From Pelosinus fermentans JBW45 (GTDB taxonomy: Bacteria > Bacillota > Negativicutes > DSM-13327): a DNA stretch of 64,000 bases. Below, in pieces: positions 4,834 to 35,629 of this stretch. The stretch lies in NCBI RefSeq assembly GCF_000271665.2, contig NZ_CP010978.1:4695001-4759000 (forward strand), given 5' to 3'. Under the pieces are notes generated by a model. It was given only the letters and a program-made list of their open reading frames with translations. It was not told the DNA's origin and did not search any database. Both the position numbers and the translations under genes were made by a program. Positions within the stretch are counted from its first letter, which is position 1, and the number at the start of each line of letters is the position of its first letter.

Positions 4834-6019
4834 AGATCATTACATTTTTTATCGCAAGAGCTAACCGTTGTATCCCTTCAATGATTTTTTCTTCCGACAT
4901 ATTTGAATAATTTAGTCGAAAGGTATTTTCAACACCGCCATTCGGAAAAAAGGAATCCCCCGGTACAAAAGCTACGTTATTTTTCAGACAGTCATGAAGT
5001 AAGTCTACGGACTTAATATGCCTAGGAAGCTCAACCCATAGAAACAGACCTCCCTGAGGGTGAGTAAAGCTTACTCCTTGAGGCATTGTTTTATTCAACA
5101 TTTCCACCATTACATCTCTGCGTTTTCGATATACGGCAACTAGCTTCTCTATATGTGTTTCAAAGTCAAACACATCCATGTAGGCTGCGATCTCCATCTG
5201 ACTTCTTATCGATGTACATAAATCAGCCCCCTGTTTTACTAATACATATTTTTCAATAAATTCAGCATCAGCAGCAATCCATCCTATACGTAATCCTGGA
5301 CAGAACGTTTTCGAAAAAGTGCTTGTAAAGATGACCTTTCCTGACCTATCCATTGATTTTAATGAAGGAAGAATCTCATTTTCAAAACGTAATTCTCCAT
5401 ATGGATTATCTTCAATAACTGGAATGTCATATTGTTGTACCAGTTTCATAAAATCACGTCTACGCTCCAGCGACCAAGTTTTTCCCGTAGGATTTTGAAA
5501 ATCAGGGATTACATAAATCAGCTTTATACTTTTCTGTGCTGCAATTATTTTTTCAAGTTCTTCTATAATCATTCCCTGGTCATCCGTGGGCACTTCTATA
5601 AAACGCGGTCCATAAGCTTTAAGAGCGCTAATGGCCGCCAAATAGGTTGGACTTTCGCACAGTACAATATCTCCTTCATCCAGGAAGAGCTTTCCAGAAA
5701 GGTCTAACGCCTGCTGTGAACCACAAGTGATTACTATGTTATCAGCAGTAACACTTGTTTTAAATTTTCGGTTCATTCGCTCTGCTATTTTCTCTCTCAA
5801 GGGTTTATATCCTTCAGTAGTGGAATATTGTAAGGCTTCTCTACCCATTTGTTCTAATACCCTTATGGATATCTCCTTTAATTCTTCCACCGGAAACAAT
5901 TCCGGAGCCGGTAATCCTCCTGCAAAGGATAATACCTCTTCCCTCTGAGTAATCTTTAGTATTTCCCTGATTTCTGACGCCCGCAATGTTTTCATACGTT
6001 TTGCAAAAGTAACCGCCAT
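4832..6019 (-). CDS. PLP-dependent aminotransferase, fold type I (2-aminoadipate/aromatic/branched-chain type)
   Basis: 395-residue aminotransferase of class I/II, close to LysN/2-aminoadipate and MocR-related enzymes. Visible features are ITCGSQQALDL (cofactor phosphate region), YVIPDFQNPTG (the Asn that contacts PLP), and STFSKTFCPGLRIGW, in which Lys237 should form the internal aldimine. A longer frame opens at 6100, but ATG 6019 has AGGAGGG eight bases upstream and gives the family N-terminus. It lies downstream of azlCD on the same strand and beside a divergent MocR regulator whose C-terminal domain is its paralogue. A role in branched-chain or related amino acid turnover is inferred from that context. 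Confidence 0.87.
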   Translation of the reverse strand: MAVTFAKRMKTLRASEIREILKITQREEVLSFAGGLPAPELFPVEELKEISIRVLEQMGREALQYSTTEGYKPLREKIAERMNRKFKTSVTADNIVITCGSQQALDLSGKLFLDEGDIVLCESPTYLAAISALKAYGPRFIEVPTDDQGMIIEELEKIIAAQKSIKLIYVIPDFQNPTGKTWSLERRRDFMKLVQQYDIPVIEDNPYGELRFENEILPSLKSMDRSGKVIFTSTFSKTFCPGLRIGWIAADAEFIEKYVLVKQGADLCTSIRSQMEIAAYMDVFDFETHIEKLVAVYRKRRDVMVEMLNKTMPQGVSFTHPQGGLFLWVELPRHIKSVDLLHDCLKNNVAFVPGDSFFPNGGVENTFRLNYSNMSEEKIIEGIQRLALAIKNVMI

Positions 6020-6096
6020 CACAAAGTCCCTCCTATATGTATTATTATGAAAATCTTTACTGTGAATAGAACTCCCATTTGAGTAAAACAGTAAAC

Positions 6097-6408
6097 TCAC
6101 ATCATGCGCAATACCAATATCATGGTCATACCTGCCCCCATAGTCACAATAGGAGGTTGACGATTATAAGCTACCAAAGCCGTTACTATGCCTGCCAGCA
6201 GATAATGATTTGAAAAAGTTAGTGCTATATAACCTTTTGGTGCAAAAAGGGCTGGCGCAATCAAAGCAGTAAGTATTGCAGTAGGTACATGCTTCAAGAA
6301 ACGTCCAAGCCCAGCAGGTACATCTCTCAAAAGCCCTATACTAGCAAAACGAGTCACAAACGTCACTACCGCCATAGCAAGGATATACATGAGAATTTCA
6401 AATCGCAT
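6097..6408 (-). CDS. azlD: AzlD-type branched-chain amino acid transport protein
   Basis: Small hydrophobic protein (103 residues, about four membrane segments) with the AzlD stretch VTFVTRFASIGLL and the central KHVPTAILTALIAPALF. AzlD works with AzlC as a two-subunit exporter of branched-chain amino acids and analogues. The chosen start (ATG 6408) has GGGAGGG upstream and lies inside the end of azlC, an 11-base overlap that suggests coupled translation. Longer in-frame N-termini would lie within azlC and lack a ribosome site. Confidence 0.9.
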   Translation of the reverse strand: MRFEILMYILAMAVVTFVTRFASIGLLRDVPAGLGRFLKHVPTAILTALIAPALFAPKGYIALTFSNHYLLAGIVTALVAYNRQPPIVTMGAGMTMILVLRMM

Positions 6409-7084
6409 CTTGTTTCCCTCCCATAAGACCGCCAGCCATAGCTGCAGCCAAGCAAGCAATAATGATATACCATTTACCAGGAATTAAAATAACAGCCCCT
6501 ACGCTAACCAGAGTTGCAACAAGGCATACGATTACACTGGCTTTGTCACGTAAGCGAGGAATCAGTAAGGCTAAGAAGGTAGCTGGCATAGCAAAATCCA
6601 ATCCCCAAGAAAGTGGATCACTTATGTAATCTCCTAAAATAACACCGCCGATCGTGGACATCACCCATAAGAGGTAACATATTACATTGCTTCCCAACTG
6701 ATAGGCTCCTGTATAACAGCCTGCTTGTGCACGTTGTATTGTCACAGCATAAGTCTCATCCGTCATTCCACAGGAAAGAAGAGCCTTAAACGGCATGGAT
6801 AGCCCACTCATATAAGGAGCAAGGGAGGCTCCCATTAAAAGATGACGAAGATTGATTAATAAGGTCGTAAAGCTAACCATTGCCAAGCTAGCCCCCTCCA
6901 TAAGCATCGGCAGACAGATAAACTGAGCAGATCCAGCAAAAACCAGTATGGACATTGCAATGGTCTCTCCTGAAGTTAAACCAACGGACTTTCCCAAAAT
7001 ACCATATGCTAAACCAAATGGAATCATCCCAACTATTAAAGGTATTGTGTCACTTACACCCTTGCGGAAGTCCTTTTTTTGCAT
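6398..7084 (-). CDS. azlC: AzlC-type branched-chain amino acid exporter subunit
   Basis: 228-residue inner-membrane protein with the AzlC signature near the start (DTIPLIVGMIPFGLAYGI) and SILVFAGSAQFICLPML. It is the large subunit of the AzlCD efflux pair. The first 7 codons include a lysine-rich leader before the first membrane helix. It is transcribed divergently from the MocR regulator at 7205 across 120 bases, so control by that regulator is likely. An aminotransferase follows azlD in the same direction. Confidence 0.91.
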   Translation of the reverse strand: MQKKDFRKGVSDTIPLIVGMIPFGLAYGILGKSVGLTSGETIAMSILVFAGSAQFICLPMLMEGASLAMVSFTTLLINLRHLLMGASLAPYMSGLSMPFKALLSCGMTDETYAVTIQRAQAGCYTGAYQLGSNVICYLLWVMSTIGGVILGDYISDPLSWGLDFAMPATFLALLIPRLRDKASVIVCLVATLVSVGAVILIPGKWYIIIACLAAAMAGGLMGGKQDAI

Positions 7085-7204
7085 TGTTATCCCTCCAATA
7101 CTTTACAGTTTTTTTACTTATAATAGCTTGCAGGAATTTAATTGTAAATATCCAATATAATATAATTAAAATACCAATTCTATCTTTTAAGGAGAATTAG
7201 ATAA

Positions 7205-8716
7205 ATGGATATTACCAAAATGCTAAGTGGTATTCGAATTGACCAATCTAGTTCAGCCCCCATGTATTTGCAGCTTGCAAATGGTTTAGCTGCAAAAATT
7301 CAAAATTCAACCCTCTCTGCTGGCACCAAACTGCCTCCAGAACGAGAACTCGTCAGATTACTGGAAGTTAGCCGTACTACAATAATTAACGCCTACAGGC
7401 TTCTGGAGGAACGGGGTTTGATAATAACACGAGTCGGCAGCGGCACTTACGTTGCTGGGCCATCATTTACAGATCAGTCAGCGGCCACTATTCTTTGGGA
7501 ACAATTGTTTACACCTCAATATAAATCACCACTGTCATCATTGCTGCGTACTTTAATTGCTACTCCCACGGCAGATGAGACAATTTCTCTTGCAGCTGGT
7601 ATGCCAGATCCAACCTTTTATCCTCTCTCCATTATTGAAAAAGCTCTCGTATCCAGTAAATATGACCTTGAAGTTTCAGATTTCGGCCACATGACTACTG
7701 AAGGATATCTTCCTCTAAGGCATTCCTTAGCAGCATGGCAAAGCCGTCTGGGAATACAAGCCACTCCTGATCAATTCTTAGTCGCCTCTGGCTCACAGCA
7801 AGGTCTGTATCTCATCGTAAAAGCCTTTGTAGAACCACGCGATTACGTTATTGTGGAATCACCTACTTACTTAGGAGCTATTCAGTCATTAGAAGCTTCT
7901 GGCGCTCGCATTCTAACCCTGCCACCATCTGATGGTATAAATTTTGAATTGCTTGAAGACTATCTAATACGCTATCGCCCTAAGTTAATGTATACAATTC
8001 CTACTTTTCAAAACCCCACTGGCAGGGTTATGTCGCTGCACGATCGGCAAGAATTAATTCGATTAGCCTCACGCTACCGCTTGGTCATCATAGAAGATGA
8101 TCCCTATAGTCAGCTCTATTACGGTCAGCAGCCCCCTCCTTCCCTCAAGAGTCTCGACACCTATGGCGGTGTAATTTATATGGGCACTTTCTCAAAAATA
8201 CTTTTTCCAGGTTTACGAACAGGCTGGGTCATCGCCGCTCCACAAGTTATCAATCGATTAGCACAAGAAAAACAGCACATCGATCTACACAGCAATAGTC
8301 TTTCTCAAATTATTCTTCATACTTGTCTGGAGGAAGATTACCTGACAAATCATTTAGCTACTGTCCGTATGGAATACAAAAAACGCCGAGATGCTATGGT
8401 TGGCGCTATCCGACGTTTTTGCAGCGGTTATATAAATTTTAATATACCTGAGGGAGGTTTTTATCTGTGGTGCAGCATAACGCCTCCGGCCTCTGGTGCA
8501 GAACTAATTCGCCGTGCAGCCACAGTAGGTGTTTCTTTTGTACCTGGTGAAGCTTTTTATACAAATGGAACTAAAAGCAATGAAATACGTCTTTGCTTTG
8601 CTACCCATAATGAAGAACTGCTAAAAGAAGGCATACGAAGATTAGGGCGCATCTTTGCATCAGGCGCTGCGAATGCAGCACAGCCGTCAGACATAGCTGG
8701 CCGACCAATTATTTAA
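7205..8716 (+). CDS. MocR/PdxR-family regulator: GntR DNA-binding domain fused to an aminotransferase domain
   Basis: 503 residues. Residues about 18-84 form a GntR winged helix (LPPERELVRLLEVSRTTI, GLIITRVGSGTYV). Residues about 120-490 form a fold type I aminotransferase domain that keeps the PLP lysine, Lys331 in GTFSKILFPGL. AAGGAGAA precedes the ATG. Such regulators sense PLP or a PLP-amino acid aldimine. It diverges from azlCD and the aminotransferase at 4832-6019, and its effector domain shares with that enzyme the motifs SGSQQ, ESPTYL and FQNPTG. It therefore probably controls this cluster in response to an amino acid that the neighbouring enzyme also binds. Confidence 0.88.
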   Translation: MDITKMLSGIRIDQSSSAPMYLQLANGLAAKIQNSTLSAGTKLPPERELVRLLEVSRTTIINAYRLLEERGLIITRVGSGTYVAGPSFTDQSAATILWEQLFTPQYKSPLSSLLRTLIATPTADETISLAAGMPDPTFYPLSIIEKALVSSKYDLEVSDFGHMTTEGYLPLRHSLAAWQSRLGIQATPDQFLVASGSQQGLYLIVKAFVEPRDYVIVESPTYLGAIQSLEASGARILTLPPSDGINFELLEDYLIRYRPKLMYTIPTFQNPTGRVMSLHDRQELIRLASRYRLVIIEDDPYSQLYYGQQPPPSLKSLDTYGGVIYMGTFSKILFPGLRTGWVIAAPQVINRLAQEKQHIDLHSNSLSQIILHTCLEEDYLTNHLATVRMEYKKRRDAMVGAIRRFCSGYINFNIPEGGFYLWCSITPPASGAELIRRAATVGVSFVPGEAFYTNGTKSNEIRLCFATHNEELLKEGIRRLGRIFASGAANAAQPSDIAGRPII

Positions 8717-28338: not shown

Positions 28339-29325
28339 GTGCACTATCATGAAATTATGACTCTGGGAGAGTCAATATTACAGGGACATCAAATTCAATA
28401 TGAAGAAGCATTACAGCTCACTACTATAATGAATGAAGACATTCCTTTACTTTCTGCTTTTGCTAATAAGATTCGTATCCAATTTTCTGGTAAAAACGTT
28501 GATATGTGCGGCATTGTAAATGCCCGCTCAGGGATGTGCTCTGAAGACTGTAAATTTTGCGCCCAATCCGTTTATCACGATACGAAGGCGCCTATACATA
28601 ATTTATTAGACATTGCGCAAATTGCTGCAGCAGCGCAAAAGGCTCAGGAACAAGGGGCAAAACGGATTAGCATTGTCACCAGCGGCAAGGGTATGGACAG
28701 TGACCCTGACTTTCCAAAGATCTTAGAGTTAATACAGGTAATTATGAACCATACCAGCTTAAAGGTCTGTGCTAATCTTGGCACACTTAGTCTAGAGCAG
28801 GCACGCATGCTGGCATCTGCCGGCGTCAAGCGTTATGCTCACAATTTAGAAACCAGCGAAAACTTCTATCCCTCGGTATGTACAACCCACTCTTATCAAG
28901 AACGTGTCAATACCATTCAGACGGCAAAAGCTGCTGGCATGGAGCTTTGCACCGGAGGTATTATTGGTATGGGAGAAAGCTGGCAGGATCGCATTGATTT
29001 TGCTTTTGCCTTAAAGAGCCTGGATGTTGCCTCCATTCCCATCAATATTCTCAATCCTATTAAAGGTACTGCTCTGGAAGATGTTACGCCTCCCTCTCCC
29101 CTTGATATTATTAAAACCTTTGCTATTTTTCGTTTTATTTTCCCTGACAAAATCATCCGTCCTGCTGGCGGTCGAGAAATAAGCTTGCGTGATATGCAGG
29201 GACACCTGATGTTATCTGGAGCAAATGGTCTTATTATTGGCAATTACTTAACCTTTACAGGTCGTAACACAGTGGCGGATTTTCAGATGGTACAAGACGC
29301 TGGGTTAATTCCTGCGCTACTGTAA
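28339..29325 (+). CDS. bioB: Biotin synthase homologue (radical SAM), first copy
   Basis: 328 residues. The radical SAM cluster motif is CSEDCKFCAQS (Cys67, Cys71, Cys74). Of the ligands of the sulfur-donating auxiliary cluster in E. coli BioB (Cys97, Cys128, Cys188, Arg260), the equivalents Cys144, Cys204 and Arg279 are present, but the Cys97 position is Ser111 in KRISIVTSG. This may alter or abolish the normal [2Fe-2S] cluster. The start is GTG with AAGGAGG eight bases upstream. A BirA operator precedes it, and a second bioB copy with all ligands follows after 70 bases. Confidence 0.88.
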   Translation: MHYHEIMTLGESILQGHQIQYEEALQLTTIMNEDIPLLSAFANKIRIQFSGKNVDMCGIVNARSGMCSEDCKFCAQSVYHDTKAPIHNLLDIAQIAAAAQKAQEQGAKRISIVTSGKGMDSDPDFPKILELIQVIMNHTSLKVCANLGTLSLEQARMLASAGVKRYAHNLETSENFYPSVCTTHSYQERVNTIQTAKAAGMELCTGGIIGMGESWQDRIDFAFALKSLDVASIPINILNPIKGTALEDVTPPSPLDIIKTFAIFRFIFPDKIIRPAGGREISLRDMQGHLMLSGANGLIIGNYLTFTGRNTVADFQMVQDAGLIPALL

Positions 29326-29395
29326 AAAACAAATAACTCTCGTAAATTACATGGCTATTTTTGAGAGTACACAAAGAATACTAGGAGGAATCAAC

Positions 29396-30388
29396 ATGGA
29401 CAACTATGATTTAATTTTTTCTCTAGGGAAAAAAATATTAGAAGGTAATCAGCTTACCTTCGATGAGGCCCTGTCCTTAACAACCATTGAAGAAAGTGAT
29501 ATTCCCATACTACTTGGCGTTGCAAATAAAATTAGGGAAAAGTTTACGGGATCCTATGTAGATACTTGCCAAATTCTGAATGCTCGTTCAGGAAACTGTA
29601 CGGAAGACTGTAAATTTTGTGCCCAATCTGCCCATCATGATGTAGAAGTAGATGTGTACCCACTCATGAATGAAAATGCAATTGTCCAGGCAGCCCAAAG
29701 AGCAGAGGAAGATTCTGCCTACCGTTTCTGTGTGATTACTTCGGGATGTGGCATGGAAGGTGATCGAGATTTTGAGAAAATTACAGCAGCAATTGAAAAA
29801 ATCGGTCAGGAAACAACTCTTCAACGTTGCTGTTCCTTAGGAACCTTGCAAGAACAACATGTAGCCGCACTCAAAAAAGCTGGTATTACGCGTTATCATC
29901 ATAATTTAGAAACCAGCGAAAGTCATTTTAGTGAAATTTGTACAACTCATACCTATGAAGAGCGTGTAAATACAATTAAAAGAGTGAAAGCTGCTGACAT
30001 TGAAGTGTGTTCCGGCGGTATCATTGGCATGGGTGAAACTTGGCGTCAGCGTATTGAATTGGCCTTTACATTAAAAGAATTGGATGTTGATTCCGTGCCC
30101 ATTAATGTTTTGAATCCCATTAAAGGAACCGCGCTGGAAAACCAAGAAAAACTGAACCCAATGGAAATTCTGCAGACCTTTGCTATTTTCCGAATGATTC
30201 TGCCTACAAAAATCATTCGTTATGCTGGCGGCCGCGAACATAATCTTGGAGAATTAGTTCCTCTAGGATTCTTATCCGGAGTTAATGGCATGCTTATCGG
30301 TCATTATCTGACTACACAAGGACGAGGAGCTAATAAAGATCTCCAAACTGTAACAGATTTAGGGCTAAAACTACTAAAAAACGCTTAA
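29396..30388 (+). CDS. bioB: Biotin synthase (radical SAM), second copy
   Basis: 330 residues. It carries CTEDCKFCAQS (Cys68, Cys72, Cys75) and all auxiliary-cluster ligands: Cys112 in RFCVITSG, Cys145 in QRCCSLG, Cys205 in VCSGG and the Arg of YAGGRE. It should convert dethiobiotin to biotin. ATG 29396 has AGGAGG seven bases upstream; an earlier ATG at 29351 lacks one. With no terminator after the first copy, both are probably under the BirA operator. The following cobT-like genes have a separate promoter. Confidence 0.9.
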   Translation: MDNYDLIFSLGKKILEGNQLTFDEALSLTTIEESDIPILLGVANKIREKFTGSYVDTCQILNARSGNCTEDCKFCAQSAHHDVEVDVYPLMNENAIVQAAQRAEEDSAYRFCVITSGCGMEGDRDFEKITAAIEKIGQETTLQRCCSLGTLQEQHVAALKKAGITRYHHNLETSESHFSEICTTHTYEERVNTIKRVKAADIEVCSGGIIGMGETWRQRIELAFTLKELDVDSVPINVLNPIKGTALENQEKLNPMEILQTFAIFRMILPTKIIRYAGGREHNLGELVPLGFLSGVNGMLIGHYLTTQGRGANKDLQTVTDLGLKLLKNA

Positions 30389-30407: not shown

Positions 30408-30437
30408 TTGACGAGTAATGATTTTACTTGATATAAT
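30408..30437 (+). promoter_or_regulatory. Promoter of the arsAB-like operon
   Basis: TTGACG (30408-30413), 18-base spacer, TATAAT (30432-30437). Strong consensus match about 130 bases upstream of the first cobT-like start. Confidence 0.75.
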
Positions 30438-30491
30438 GGCAATGATTATAAATATAGCGTTGCTATCTCAGCGCAAAAATCAACAGTTGGT

Positions 30492-30529
30492 GGCTTTTTT
30501 GGTATTAATTTCCGAAAAAGCCCTTTTTT
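30492..30529 (+). terminator. Leader hairpin with T run (possible attenuator) before arsA-like gene
   Basis: GGCTTTTT (30492-30499) pairs with AAAAAGCC (30515-30522), followed by CTTTTTTC. It lies between the promoter and the start codon, so some transcripts may stop here. Confidence 0.6.
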
Positions 30530-30565
30530 CTGCATTAATGGTGACAAAGACAATTGGAGGTTACT

Positions 30566-31624
30566 ATGAGTTTATTATTCGAAACATGTTCGCAAATTGC
30601 CCCTTTAGATCAAAAAGTCATGGAAGCGGTTCAATTACGATTAGACACATTGATTAAACCCCAAAACAGTCTTGGCCGTCTGGAAGAGATGGTAAAGCAA
30701 TACGCTGGTATTCGAAAAGAAGAACTCCCTAGAGTGCCTCGCACATGCATGGTTATCGCCTGCGCCGATCACGGCGTAGCTCGCAACCAAATCAGTGCCT
30801 ATCCTGTAGAAACTACACTGCAAATGACTAAAAATTATGTGGGTGCCAAAGGTGCCAGCGCTAATGCTTTTGCAAACTTTAGCGGTGCTGATATGGTCGT
30901 AGTAGATGCCGGGGTTGCCGCTGACCTATCTGATACTAAAGGGCTATGGCATCGTAAAATTGCCTATGGGACAAAGGACTTCACGCAAGGTCCAGCAATG
31001 ACACGGGAAGAAGCCACTCAAGCCCTGGAAATTGGAATCGAAATCGTGAATGAAAAGGTGCGTGCTGGCTACAGTTGTTTCAGCCTGGGTGAAATGGGTA
31101 TCGGCAATACCACTTCCAGCGCAGCAATTGCAGCAGCCTTTACCAATATTACTCCCGAACAAGCTACAGGACGCGGCACTGGCATTTCAGACAGCCGTCT
31201 TGTCTTTAAAATTGATATGGTACGCCAGGCACTTACTGTGAATCAGCCAAATCCTCAAGATGGACTGGATGTTCTGGCAAAAATCGGAGGTTTTGAAACA
31301 GGGGTTTTAGCAGGAGTTATACTGGGTGCTGCTGCAAATCGCTGTGTGGTTGTTATTGATGGTCTTAATACAACTGCCGCTGCGTTGATTGCCAACGCTC
31401 TTCATCCCATGGTCCCCCACTACCTTATGCCTTCTCATTTATCAGGTGAACCTGCTCATCGCATTGCCCTAAAGTTTCTTGGCCTAGAAGCGTGCATTGA
31501 TATGGGAATTCGGCTAGGAGAAGCAATTGGTGCGTCTATAGTAGTCGATATGCTGGGTGCTTCTATTAAAATGCTGGCTGGTATGATTTCTTATGAAGAT
31601 TCTGCTGGTAAAAAGGAAGCATAA
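30566..31624 (+). CDS. arsA: CobT-family phosphoribosyltransferase, probable ArsA-like subunit
   Basis: 352 residues, homologous throughout to nicotinate-nucleotide:dimethylbenzimidazole phosphoribosyltransferase: ADHGVARNQISAYP, GEMGIGNTTSS (175-185), and the C-terminal SHLSGEPAHR and IRLGEAIGAS. Glu319 in the last motif corresponds to the catalytic Glu of CobT. A second CobT homologue follows 26 bases on. In Sporomusa ovata such a pair (ArsA and ArsB) forms a heterodimer that ribosylates phenol and p-cresol for phenolyl cobamides. I infer the same here; two independent CobT enzymes is the alternative. ATG 30566 has GGAGG upstream. Confidence 0.82.
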   Translation: MSLLFETCSQIAPLDQKVMEAVQLRLDTLIKPQNSLGRLEEMVKQYAGIRKEELPRVPRTCMVIACADHGVARNQISAYPVETTLQMTKNYVGAKGASANAFANFSGADMVVVDAGVAADLSDTKGLWHRKIAYGTKDFTQGPAMTREEATQALEIGIEIVNEKVRAGYSCFSLGEMGIGNTTSSAAIAAAFTNITPEQATGRGTGISDSRLVFKIDMVRQALTVNQPNPQDGLDVLAKIGGFETGVLAGVILGAAANRCVVVIDGLNTTAAALIANALHPMVPHYLMPSHLSGEPAHRIALKFLGLEACIDMGIRLGEAIGASIVVDMLGASIKMLAGMISYEDSAGKKEA

Positions 31625-31650
31625 TTTGTTGATAACAGGAGGTCTCACTT

Positions 31651-32748
31651 ATGATGCAAGATACGATTTCGTTAATTAAACCACTTGATACAATCGCGAT
31701 GGAAAAATGCCAAATACGCCTTGATAACTTAACCAAACCTCTAAACAGTTTATATTCATTTGAACATTTGGCACGTCAGCTTTCCGGTATTACTTATAAT
31801 CCTAGACCGCGCAGCCTAAAAAAAAGTATTATCATCATGGCAGCAGACCATGGGGTAGCAGCAGAAGAACCTTGCGCTTTTTCTAAACAAGAAGTGATCC
31901 TTCAAAGAATTCATAATATTTCACAAGGCGGCGCCGCAGTCAACATTTTCGCTGACCATGTTGCTGCCGATTTACTCCTTGTAGATATGGGTATTGCTGC
32001 CAACGTACCGCCTCTTCCTTTGGTAAGAAATGAAAAAATCGCCTATGGAACTAAAAACATAAATCATGGTCCTGCAATGACTCGGGAAGAAGCGATAAAG
32101 GCAATCGAGATTGGCATTAGAGTCGCTGCTGAAACTATTAAAAAAGGTTCTCATGTCCTAGGATTAGGCGAAATGGGAGTCGCCAATACGATTTCCAGTA
32201 CTGCTATCATTGCCTGCTACAGCCAAAGCCCGCTGACTGAGTTGGTGGGAAAGACTGCAGATTCTTCTAGCGATCTTTTTAATAAAAAACTTGCACTCAT
32301 TCGTCACGCCATTACCGTGAATACTCCAAATATTCATGATCCAATTGATGTATTAAGTAAGCTGGGTGGCTTTGAGATTGCTGGACTGGTTGGGGTTATC
32401 CTAGGTGCAGCTTCAGGCGGTGCTGCCATCGTCTTAGATGGTCTTGTAACCAGCACTGCTGCCTTACTTGCGGTAAAATTAGCTCCTCAAGTAAAAGACT
32501 ATCTCATTGGTTCTCATTGCCCCCCAGAACCTGCACATAAAGCCAGCCTTGACTTAATTGGCATTCCCGCTTACCTTCATCTCAACATCTTCTTAGGCGA
32601 AGGAGTGGGTGCTGCATTAGGAATGTCCTTACTCAATGCCTCATTACATGTTTTAAATGATATGAAAACCTTTGGCGATGCAGAGGTACCTGTCGCACAT
32701 GACGGACCGGGCGCTCTTAAACAAGATAAGAATGTAAAAGATGAATAA
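31651..32748 (+). CDS. arsB: CobT-family phosphoribosyltransferase, probable ArsB-like subunit
   Basis: 365 residues, the second member of the tandem pair. CobT motifs AADHGVAAEEP, GLGEMGVANTISS and the C-terminal SHCPPEPAH and IFLGEGVGAALG are present, with a Phe where CobT usually has Arg before LGEG. Divergence from both canonical CobT and its neighbour fits the ArsB subunit of the S. ovata heterodimer. AGGAGG lies eight bases before ATG. A short polar tail (last 20 residues) extends beyond the fold. A strong terminator follows immediately. Confidence 0.8.
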   Translation: MMQDTISLIKPLDTIAMEKCQIRLDNLTKPLNSLYSFEHLARQLSGITYNPRPRSLKKSIIIMAADHGVAAEEPCAFSKQEVILQRIHNISQGGAAVNIFADHVAADLLLVDMGIAANVPPLPLVRNEKIAYGTKNINHGPAMTREEAIKAIEIGIRVAAETIKKGSHVLGLGEMGVANTISSTAIIACYSQSPLTELVGKTADSSSDLFNKKLALIRHAITVNTPNIHDPIDVLSKLGGFEIAGLVGVILGAASGGAAIVLDGLVTSTAALLAVKLAPQVKDYLIGSHCPPEPAHKASLDLIGIPAYLHLNIFLGEGVGAALGMSLLNASLHVLNDMKTFGDAEVPVAHDGPGALKQDKNVKDE

Positions 32749-32750
32749 AC

Positions 32751-32793
32751 AAAAAGATGGCAGCAGTTCATAACAAACTGCTGCCATCTTTTT
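32751..32793 (+). terminator. Intrinsic terminator after the arsAB-like pair
   Basis: An 18-bp perfect stem (32751-32768 and 32776-32793) has flanking A and T runs. Confidence 0.93.
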
Positions 32794-32845
32794 GTTTATT
32801 CCATTAGAATTTAGATAAATTTTGTAAGCAAAAAATATAAATAAC

Positions 32846-32892: not shown

Positions 32893-33372
32893 TTATGCAG
32901 GAACATAGTTCTGCAAATTTTCTAATGCAAGTCCATTAATCTCTACTCCAGTCAATAAATGATCCATATCTAACATAACAATGAGACGCTCCTCCACTTT
33001 GCCAATTCCAATTATGAATTTACTTTCTGCTTCTTGAATAAAAGAGGGCGCAGCTTCGATCTCTTCGGAATTAAATACCACAATGTCCGTTACTTCATCC
33101 ACTAAGCATCCTACGATACGCTCATTCGTCTGAACCATAATAATCTTACTTTCATCATTTATTACTTGGTTTTCTAACTTTAATTTTTTGCGTAAGTTAA
33201 AAACATATCGAACATTATCTCTCCAATTTATCATACCTTCCATATTGCCCAAGGTACCCGGGACCACCTGAATATTGACTCGATTCGCTCTAATAATACC
33301 ATGTACTGTTGCTGCCTCTAGGGCAAATTCAGTACCATTCATTTCAAAAACAACCATTTGTACACGTGCCAT
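32893..33372 (-). CDS. cheW: CheW-like chemotaxis coupling protein
   Basis: About 159 residues forming a single CheW domain: VQMVVFEMNGTEFALEAATV, GMINWRDNVRYVFNLRKKL, VGCLVDEVTDIVVF and a C-terminal VMLDMDHLLTG. CheW couples chemoreceptors to the kinase CheA. AGGAGA stands seven bases before ATG 33372; the longer frame starting at 33420 lies inside the receptor gene. It directly follows a soluble chemoreceptor gene, so the two are probably co-expressed, with CheA elsewhere. Confidence 0.88.
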   Translation of the reverse strand: MARVQMVVFEMNGTEFALEAATVHGIIRANRVNIQVVPGTLGNMEGMINWRDNVRYVFNLRKKLKLENQVINDESKIIMVQTNERIVGCLVDEVTDIVVFNSEEIEAAPSFIQEAESKFIIGIGKVEERLIVMLDMDHLLTGVEINGLALENLQNYVPA

Positions 33373-33409
33373 ACCATCATCTCCTAGCCCTAAATCAGTA
33401 ACTACACTT

Positions 33410-34459
33410 TTACATATCATTAGCTAAGGCATATAACTCTTCCGCCATGCCAGTTACTTCTTCAATGCTAGCGGTTACTTCCTCAATGGCAGCCGCCTGC
33501 TGTTCTACGGTTGAGCTGGTAGCACTTCCCATAGCAACGGTCTTATCTACGGATTGCTGAATAATGGTAGTAAATTCTTTAATTTTACCCACTGTCTGTT
33601 TCGAATCCCCGGAGAGCTTTCTGATTTCTTGTGCCACCACACCAAAACCGAGACCTGCTTCGCCTGCTCTGGCTGCCTCGATTGCTGCATTTAGTCCTAA
33701 CAAACGGGTTTCATCAGCAATTTCTTTGATAAAATCCATCACTTCATTAATTTTCCCTGATACTACATTTACGTTATTTATTTCTGTATTCAAGGAACTT
33801 TGATTCACGCTAACATCGCTTGCAGAAGCTGCCAGCTCTTCCATTGTAGCTGATATTTGAATCACACTATCATTAATAATACCAGCCATATTCCTTAATT
33901 TACTTTGCTGATACCACATTTTCGATAGGGTATTGGCAACTAAATATAAGACATGAGCAGCAGCCTCCACGCTTTTTCTAGGCACTTGCTTGATTTCACT
34001 TAACGACTTCATATATTCGTCAGGATCTACGCCGATTTCTTGGGCTATTTGACGAAATTTTCCTTCATCTGGAGCAGAAGTCAAAACCTGTCCGCCTAAT
34101 ATCGTCCCGATCTGTTTACCCTCCAGCATAATAGGAGCTGCAAAATCAACTAAACCAGCATGACAATCATAAATCGCTGGCTTGCCTGTTCTGGCGGACT
34201 CTTCACCGCCTTTGCTGTCACATTCCATACAGCGTTTGTTCCCAACATTCGATTCCCGCGTATGTTTCATACAGAATGTTGTGAAATTGCTGGGAGTAGT
34301 GACGGGCTTCCCCTCAATATCAACTGCAATACTGGCTACCCCTACAGCTTCGGCAAAGTTATCCTGAAAGGTCTGCAAAAAGTTTACATCAATAATATCT
34401 ACTAACTTGACTTTACTAAAATCTTCTAAAGGCTGTTTTACTGCTGTCACCTTTGTCAT
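33410..34459 (-). CDS. Soluble methyl-accepting chemotaxis protein with PocR sensory domain
   Basis: About 349 residues without membrane segments. Residues about 15-175 resemble the PocR ligand-binding domain (the Cys-containing FCMKHTRES and [10 protein letters not shown], then [17 protein letters not shown]). Residues about 190-349 form a short chemoreceptor signalling hairpin with its conserved tip ([15 protein letters not shown]). PocR domains sense small compounds such as 1,2-propanediol; four Cys residues suggest metal or redox sensing is also possible. ATG 34459 has GGAGG eight bases upstream, whereas the longer start lacks one. The cheW-like gene follows. Confidence 0.87.
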
Positions 34460-34603
34460 GGATTTTGCCTCCATTTTCTAATTTTTCAGTTTTTTATTTA
34501 ATGATAATTTTCGACAAAGACAACATGATTTCCTTGAGAATTTTTTAGCTTCATTATTGCACATTATTGCCATTTTTTAATCTTTTTGTAATATTATGTC
34601 GTT

Positions 34604-35419
34604 TTAACCAAACATAGCAATTCCTAATGGCGTAACTAACAAAGGATGAGGGGGAACGTGTACTTTACGTCCGAAAGCTTTGCTAAATTCTTCACCAAAA
34701 CCAGTCAGATAAGCGGTACCGCCTACCACATATACAGGGTAATCCTGATATTCATCATATTCTGCCAGCATGTTCTTTACAATCGTTGCCATCTTTTCAA
34801 TAACAGGTAAAACAACCGGCATGATGCGTCGATGCTGGGATACATCTTTTTTAAGAACTTCCGCTTCCTCGTAGGTAATTTTATATGCTCCAGACAGCAC
34901 CAGAGATATGTGAGTACCTCCTGTTGCCTCATCAGCGGTGAAAACTAAATCTCCGTTCTTTAATACAGCAATCCCTGTAGTTCCGCCACCAATATCCACC
35001 ACGATACCATGACCGATATTTAGAGCTTTAGCTGCTGCCACTGGTTCATCCACTTGGCAGATAGGTTCGATCCCCGCCCCTGCAATCACATGTCCGCAAG
35101 CCTGGGCATTACGCCCTACTGTACCTGGCGGAATGGCCGTTGCACCTTTCTCTAGAGTAATCCCCATAATGTTCTCTACCTCAACCTTTAGTTCTTCAAC
35201 AATCGTCGTCGCTCCCCTAAAATCAACAACTAAACCATCTTTCACCACCGATGCCCAGCGCAGGCTTCCAGCTACAGGATTCCCCTGGCTGTCAGTCACC
35301 ACCAGTACCACATCAGCCGTTCCCAAATCTACTCCCACTTTATAAGGTCCTGGCAAATCGGCTGCTGTTCCTGTTTCGATCAGATGATGCAATTGATGAA
35401 TCTTTTCATATGCTTCCAT
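34604..35419 (-). CDS. eutJ: EutJ-family Hsp70-like protein
   Basis: 271 residues with the actin/Hsp70 ATPase fold: phosphate loop YKVGVDLGTADVVLVV, a second loop GIVVDIGGGTTGIAVLK and VYVVGGTAYLTGF. Sequence and length fit EutJ, an ethanolamine-utilisation protein of chaperone type. No other eut gene or microcompartment shell gene is in the window, so its role here is unclear. ATG 35419 follows GGGAGG by six bases; the longer frame upstream is unlikely. The neighbouring receptor has a PocR domain, another link to microcompartment substrates. Confidence 0.85.
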   Translation of the reverse strand: MEAYEKIHQLHHLIETGTAADLPGPYKVGVDLGTADVVLVVTDSQGNPVAGSLRWASVVKDGLVVDFRGATTIVEELKVEVENIMGITLEKGATAIPPGTVGRNAQACGHVIAGAGIEPICQVDEPVAAAKALNIGHGIVVDIGGGTTGIAVLKNGDLVFTADEATGGTHISLVLSGAYKITYEEAEVLKKDVSQHRRIMPVVLPVIEKMATIVKNMLAEYDEYQDYPVYVVGGTAYLTGFGEEFSKAFGRKVHVPPHPLLVTPLGIAMFG

Positions 35420-35629
35420 ACTTGTCCTCCCTATCGCTATTGCCAAAGGCAATTGTATGCTCTTCCTTAACTTAACTCTAACTCGCTGACCAAGTCTCTC
35501 TTTATGATTATCCAAATCTTAATTTATATCCTGCTCCAAAAGGCCTAATAGAATGCCCACTTCTTTTACTATCTTGCTCAAATTATTTATAAAAGGCTGA
35601 TATATCCTCTTAAAACATATAAAACAATC

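Follow-up and report, generated by a model that had tools for sequence, protein, structure and literature searches.

Two adjacent cobT-family genes lie at 30566..31624 and 31651..32748 on the forward strand of a 64,000-nucleotide stretch of DNA from Pelosinus fermentans JBW45 (contig NZ_CP010978.1, positions 4,695,001 to 4,759,000; hereafter the window). With a probability that we put at about 93%, these are the arsA and arsB genes of this organism, and their products are predicted from sequence to give phenolyl or p-cresolyl cobamide. In Sporomusa ovata, ArsA and ArsB are likewise encoded side by side and reportedly form a heterodimer that activates phenol and p-cresol as lower bases. As a gene pair, the window arsAB is ordinary: pairs of this kind are known, and what it chiefly predicts is already on record for the species. 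In the table of one review, P. fermentans R7 is given as a provider of [Phe]cobamide for Dehalococcoides (PMC11321594, which cites Men et al. 2014), so that the unusual cobamide foreseen in the original prediction is one already credited to another strain, and R7 and Pelosinus propionicus are among the genomes with predicted ArsAB in Table 1 of PMC8123684, where R7 is a putative phenolyl-cobamide maker.

Two testable extensions go beyond this, both of which seem less known: an apparent progressive erosion of ArsB in the Negativicutes, and a proposed link between canonical CobT and dehydratase or lyase genes. No statement of either was found in the literature searched, which was covered at passage level with most subscription papers outside reach.

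Orthology of the two subunits

The 352 amino acid ArsA starts at an ATG with GGAGG 5' of it (the mechanically called open reading frame opens earlier, at a TTG at 30554). After a spacer of 26 bases (31625-31650) follows arsB, with its own GGAGG-type ribosome site, encoding a 365 amino acid protein with the C-terminal tail LNDMKTF...DGPGALKQ. PF02277 (Pfam) covers nearly its whole profile in both proteins (392.5 bits for ArsA and 361 for ArsB, cut-off 22.6) and both pass TIGR03160, the general CobT model of NCBIfam (380.5 and 338.7 bits, cut-off 319.3), while sharing only ~41% identity with each other. Reading frames, profile matches and identity thus agree with the description of two complete but divergent CobT-family genes.

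The best solved relative of the window ArsA is S. ovata ArsA (4hdk chain A, 485 bits, E 1e-144), with a CobT next at 220 bits, and that of the window ArsB is S. ovata ArsB (4hdk chain B, 420 bits, E 7e-125), with ArsA next at 238. The resemblance to ArsAB originally proposed therefore holds for each protein separately and by a wide margin. For wider comparison we used a set of named loci, the top 80 of 583 confirmed when ordered by similarity to the window ArsA and its kin. The nearest in the set is a locus of an uncultured Pelosinus (ArsA 94%), although the window's own or very near records may be left out. A maximum likelihood tree was built from 90 chosen CobT-family rows taken from these 80 loci and from 60 genomes, that of JBW45 included. 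The ArsA clade (40 rows, support 100/99) includes the window, S. ovata and Veillonella parvula proteins, the first two sharing one 15-row subclade (100/99) and V. parvula falling in another. The ArsB clade (100/100) unites all 29 ArsB rows with a single protein labelled CobT (L131_C), which sits on a long branch and is perhaps a derived ArsB. In a second tree, from which five rows were removed (L127_B, L131_C, L003_C, Tth_1wx1 and L014_C), ArsA and ArsB are each monophyletic in all 200 bootstrap trees (100%), for ArsB partly because the intruder L131_C had been left out. The canonical Salmonella enterica-type CobT sits outside both clades in the first tree, on long branches, and neither window protein is placed with it, that is, with CobTs of the canonical dimethylbenzimidazole (DMB) type. 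Structure matches and both trees accordingly support orthology of one protein to S. ovata ArsA and of the other to S. ovata ArsB; rather than both falling outside these clades, the window proteins lie one in each. The lengths and adjacency of the genes also agree with the published definition of arsAB as two adjacent cobT genes encoding 300-800 amino acids, an arrangement that Shelton et al. found in 27 species, nearly all of them Negativicutes (PMC6461909).

The closest characterised system is that of S. ovata DSM 2662 (PDB 4hdk, 4hdm, 4hdn, 4hdr and 4hds), with the same arsA-arsB order, 66% and 59% identity in the orthologous subunits, and the same ArsA pocket residues and ArsB tail. The flanking genes differ, however, and S. 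ovata ArsB is ~14 residues shorter, mainly through one core gap, whereas Pelosinus ArsB keeps its core length. The V. parvula pair (L101) belongs to the same two clades but is more distant (47% and 33%), with a more eroded ArsB core; this species also has a separate cobT (PMC8123684), and a preference of its ArsAB for phenolic bases has been reported (PMC4657239). Canonical CobT (S. enterica 1jh8, or the organism's own CobT at 3674522) shares the PF02277 family and the chemistry class but has one kind of subunit only.

Two loci show another arrangement. In L119 (genome G011, 5565-8448), the deepest gene of the ArsA clade is paired with a CobT of another clade ~600 bases away, and L005 (G031) similarly combines an ArsA-clade gene with a CobT of another clade. 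This is possibly the ancestral state of the pair.

Active-site residues and the roles of the subunits

In S. enterica CobT numbering, used throughout, the window ArsA has Y80, P81, M88, E174, M175, K213 and E317, and all seven residues are invariant in 39/39 ArsA rows of the tree set, including L119_A, which lacks an ArsB partner. The window protein thus has Glu 174, Lys 213 and Glu 317 and the hydrophobic base pocket that mark the ArsA active site. The S80Y/Q88M/L175M form of S. enterica CobT has been crystallised with p-cresol, to judge from the titles of PDB 4kqj and 4kqk. As a stand-alone marker of ArsA, however, the Y/M/M trio had to be rejected, Thermus CobT having it as well.

The window ArsB has F, S and R at positions 80, 81 and 88 (Q, Q and R in S. 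ovata ArsB) and keeps the GVANT loop. Among ArsB rows, E317 survives in 26/32 separate and 3/23 fused proteins and E174 in 14/32 and 1/23. The original prediction had drawn attention to a C-terminal LGE glutamate in both window proteins, with different surroundings (RLGEA and FLGEG). Both sequences read as claimed, but the shared glutamate is not diagnostic of ArsAB, because ArsB tolerates its loss and S. enterica CobT likewise has it.

A further feature is the ArsB tail (DMKTF...DGPG), a criterion derived in the present analysis rather than from the literature. It is present in the window ArsB and kept in 53/55 ArsB rows, the two misses (L016 and L018) being frames cut by the locus end. A search with the tail model matched 269/300 genomes of the class, a figure that overstates ArsB because ordinary CobT C-termini probably match too, and 194/398 in the phylum, where the window's class accounts for the 11 best among the matches listed. 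Outside the class, the strongest of those listed has an E value of 4.9e-17, and most end at about model position 45-54, short of the tail; we read them as probable ordinary CobT C-termini. In one genome (G083:C3:53479-53667) the tail occurs in a 136 amino acid open frame ~5 kb from a second tail in a 354 amino acid frame, the former being either a remnant or a second mini-ArsB.

In the scheme that we propose, ArsA would hold the working active site and would transfer the phosphoribosyl group of nicotinate mononucleotide to phenol or p-cresol. Catalysis by ArsB would not be required; its two end segments, N- and C-terminal, would close the ArsA base pocket in the heterodimer. A cobamide synthase would then join the product to the corrin ring, giving a phenolyl or p-cresolyl cobamide that would be unable to coordinate its own cobalt, with tyrosine phenol-lyase as the source of phenol and ThiH as that of p-cresol. 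We infer that the pair is active, that ArsB acts as a cap and that phenol and p-cresol flow in this way. The reaction and structures of S. ovata ArsAB and the phenolyl cobamide of P. fermentans R7 come from published work; established here are the orthology, the residue conservation, the presence of the source enzymes and the lack of a BluB match, or a match to the one Bza model used, over cut-off.

Apparent erosion of ArsB

ArsA and ArsB occur together in 40 of the 80 named loci, as two frames in 21 and as one fused frame in 19. The titles of these 40 name Negativicutes groups, except that three say only Bacillota. The other 40 loci hold single CobTs, 39 with titles from other phyla and one (L078) described only as an uncultured bacterium. 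The fused proteins of the Selenomonadaceae and Pectinatus differ from the Pelosinus pair in being the product of one gene, while their ArsA part and ArsB tail are homologous to those of the window. The portion following ArsA is 287-368 amino acids long in 20/23 fused rows but only 137-139 in the remaining three, all from Pectinatus (L059, L061 and L063). In the Pectinatus haikarae protein, nothing aligns to window ArsB residues 54-260, and 261-303 align only in patches. The Pectinatus remnant thus keeps chiefly the N- and C-terminal pieces, the same ones that are conserved in full-length ArsBs, and little of the core. The same short frame, of 484-512 amino acids, was recovered by the tail search in 5/5 genomes of one genus, g31 (G045, G187, G229, G269 and G275). 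It is the sole CobT-family frame in G045, G269 and G275, G187 and G229 holding another CobT, and all five genomes carry a CobS.

Mean pairwise identity across 27 ArsA-ArsB pairs, with boundaries that were set after viewing the Pectinatus alignment, is 0.58 for ArsB residues 8-52 and 0.73 for 326-344, but 0.42 for the intervening 53-325. In ArsA the pattern is reversed, with 0.41 and 0.29 at the ends and 0.63 in the core. A contrast of this size was reached by 1/341 circular shifts, and in 349/351 locus pairs ArsB is less conserved than ArsA. In CobT, the base pocket is closed by a small domain that the adjacent subunit contributes and that is built from N- and C-terminal parts. For the S. enterica enzyme, formation of the pocket by both chains is described in PMC9561151. 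An AlphaFold2 model of the P. haikarae fusion (14 rows in the alignment) has a mean predicted local distance difference test score (pLDDT) of 85.8 and a predicted template-modelling score (pTM) of 0.91, and matches 4hdr_C over the ArsA part (template-modelling score 0.94 by target length). The ArsB remnant (361-460) is helical in the model, with block means of pLDDT of 80-96, falling to ~66 in the last 17 residues.

ArsB therefore looks like a cap for the ArsA base pocket, and the simplest reading of the alignments would be one working site per heterodimer, made of the ArsA core and the ArsB end segments. Across the Negativicutes the ArsB core appears to decay and the protein to become fused to ArsA, until ~138 residues are left in Pectinatus. 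Such a series can be read as a deletion experiment done by nature, showing which parts of its partner subunit an active site requires. It also bears on surveys of the trait. By its wording, the published marker of two adjacent cobT genes would pass over single-gene fusions, 19/40 of the ArsAB loci among the best 80, so that the phenolyl-cobamide trait has probably been undercounted.

Larger fusions of ArsAB to another enzyme were considered (open frames of 844 and 1195 amino acids) and rejected, since the frame merely runs upstream, in another reading frame, across tex, which overlaps by one base. In five Selenomonadaceae loci of family f11 (L180-L182, L184 and L185), the fused arsAB overlaps or directly follows tex, the gene for an RNA-binding transcription factor.

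Lower bases and alternative readings

Tyrosine phenol-lyase frees phenol from tyrosine, and ThiH frees p-cresol. Both enzymes are encoded in the JBW45 genome (881 bits, cut-off 720.7, and 527 bits, cut-off 380), together with a second ThiH-family match that lies below the same cut-off at 301 bits and may be HydG. A profile search of the genome for BluB gave at best 62 bits (cut-off 150), and with the single Bza model tried (TIGR04386) the sole ThiC-like protein scored 528 bits (cut-off 700). On account of this score and of its position ~700 bases from thiH, the ThiC-like protein is probably the thiamin enzyme. Two CobS proteins are encoded, one near a canonical cobT and the second elsewhere. 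At contaminated sites to which nutrients have been added, Pelosinus rises to dominance (PMC4582584), and the arsAB pair explains at gene level the supply of phenolyl cobamide by Pelosinus to dechlorinating partners (PMC11321594).

Several observations weigh against an ArsAB that makes phenolic cobamides with ArsB as a cap. S. ovata ArsAB has been crystallised with phenol and with p-cresol, but also binds DMB (both from PDB titles, the latter 4hdr), and reportedly activates benzimidazoles (PMC8123684), which makes the lower base a matter of supply; the case against Bza, moreover, concerns one model only. The genome carries a third, canonical CobT, which makes it likely that cobamides other than phenolic ones are also made. 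The Y/M/M trio, as noted, is shared with Thermus CobT. Within ArsB, core residues 241-270 are also fairly conserved (0.57-0.64), core columns 261-274, 284-286 and 304-325 can still be aligned to what is left of ArsB in Pectinatus, and the window protein retains E174, K213 and E317, which could mean a residual second active site.

The last point bears on two rival explanations. Were the genes a tandem duplication of canonical CobT, kept as redundant enzymes for, say, DMB and adenine, then retention of the three residues in both proteins and their passage of the general CobT model would be expected. The genes are not a local duplication, however, but belong to two separate clades, each common to many Negativicutes families; canonical CobT is encoded far away, by a third gene next to a cobS; matches to BluB and to the single Bza model tried fall short of their cut-offs; and the second protein has the ArsB-specific tail, all of which leaves redundant CobTs a very improbable account. 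Less easily dismissed, though still unlikely, is an ArsB that is itself catalytic in Pelosinus, giving a heterodimer with two working sites of differing base preference. Here the three residues are joined by the GVANT loop, and the ArsB of a congener (L117_B) retains Y, P and M at 80, 81 and 88. The window ArsB, in contrast, has F, S and R there, its core is less conserved than that of ArsA (0.42 against 0.63), the ArsA end segments that would have to close an ArsB site are relaxed (0.41 and 0.29), and E174 is left in only a minority of separate ArsBs and a single fused one. Taken together, these favour an ArsAB in which ArsA would be the catalytic subunit.

Canonical CobT and the dehydratase genes

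The canonical cobT at 3674522, distant from arsAB, sits with cobC and cobS beside a PocR-type kinase and regulator and a diol dehydratase operon (L126 421-13521; ~3664420-3677520 in the JBW45 genome); cobS and the dehydratase large subunit were confirmed by Pfam, the other names there being given by eye. The arrangement is similar in other Negativicutes. Among 21 cobT loci, from 19 of the 28 genomes counted as having canonical CobT and two Pectinatus genomes, 18 have a dehydratase or lyase gene within the stretch covered (the dehydratase large subunit in 16, eutB in L199 and L206) and 16 also have cobS. Neither dehydratase nor lyase gene was seen in L190 and L200, which are short contigs, or in L207, of which mostly one side is seen. 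For the nine further CobT genomes, compared by coordinates, CobT and dehydratase lie within 6 kb in G035 and G044 and on different contigs in G007, G016, G033 and G051; dehydratase is absent in G012, G042 and G049. Presence of canonical CobT and of dehydratase agrees in 53 of the 60 genomes (23 with both, 30 with neither), five having CobT only and two dehydratase only (Fisher 1e-9); by genus (41), the tally is 12 both, 24 neither, three CobT only and two dehydratase only (p 4e-6). CobT class was assigned by hand (by tree for G016) and shared ancestry inflates both Fisher figures. One genus, g10, contains both states, concordantly.

Diol dehydratase is taken here to be a base-on enzyme. Phenolyl cobamides cannot coordinate cobalt, and non-coordinating cobamides are inactive in base-on enzymes (PMC6759758; PMC9600662); p-cresolyl cobamide did not support growth dependent on ethanolamine ammonia-lyase (PMC12013260). 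Because of this inactivity, and of the position of CobT beside dehydratase and lyase genes, we propose that ArsAB and canonical CobT serve different enzyme classes, an idea that fits the differential expression of cobT and arsAB stated for V. parvula (PMC8123684). In its full form, the proposal would have ArsAB-bearing Negativicutes making two cobamides in parallel, a phenolyl one by ArsAB for base-off enzymes and a coordinating one by CobT, often with its own CobS, for base-on enzymes, with ArsB a pure cap that in Pectinatus has lost nearly all of its core and become a ~138-residue domain fused to ArsA. We hold this full form tentatively, at a little under even odds.

An equal split of the odds is what we would give to the view that canonical CobT lies near diol dehydratase merely through general cob-pdu clustering or co-regulation, and not through need for a different cobamide. 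PocR-type regulators lie between cobT and the dehydratase here too (by eye, and conserved across loci), recalling the cob-pdu-pocR arrangement of Salmonella. One review, moreover, has diol dehydratase working base-off, the opposite of the view taken above (PMC4785665). Against mere clustering, the one locus with its reading frames listed, L126, contains by eye only nucleotide-loop genes (cobT, cobC and cobS) and no corrin-ring genes; the inactivity of non-coordinating cobamides in base-on enzymes (PMC6759758) and the failure of p-cresolyl cobamide in ethanolamine ammonia-lyase growth (PMC12013260) point the same way. The proximity of CobT to dehydratase and lyase genes makes it possible to ask directly, by genetics, what a cell would gain from two lower-ligand systems.

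Transcription signals and neighbouring genes

The arsAB genes had been described as lying under one promoter and terminator. The terminator is well supported by a hairpin at 32744..32800 (-36.4 kcal/mol, z -10.3, with equally stable shuffles in 0/200). A terminator scan assigns it to the minus strand and its stem has T-runs at the ends on both strands, so that it probably terminates in both directions. The promoter is only suggestive: the sigma-70-like candidate at 30408..30437 on the plus strand (TTGACG-18-TATAAT, with TG before the second hexamer, 11/12 matches) is of a type no commoner between 28000 and 33000 than in shuffles of that region (13 sites found, 12.8 expected). Control by a riboswitch was rejected, since an Rfam scan of the window gave nothing above gathering score; no tRNA was found in the window either.

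Matches to ArsAB in plasmid records (125) all have <60% identity and, among the 10 matches listed, nine are annotated as cobT and one is without annotation; plasmid-borne ArsAB was therefore discarded. Directly upstream of arsA lie two tandem biotin synthase genes (28339-29325 and 29351-30388; TIGR00433, 389 and 412 bits, cut-off 225). They are present in 6/6 loci of the window's genus with upstream flanks (L033 and L113-L117) and in none of the remaining loci compared, some of which have short flanks. Because they were seen only in this genus among the loci compared, we treat them as unrelated neighbours and set aside a functional link. Convergent with arsAB, at 32893-35515, are genes for CheW, for a chemoreceptor that contains a PocR sensory domain and for a EutJ-family protein, a relative of which (83%) is also found near arsAB in L043 and L123.

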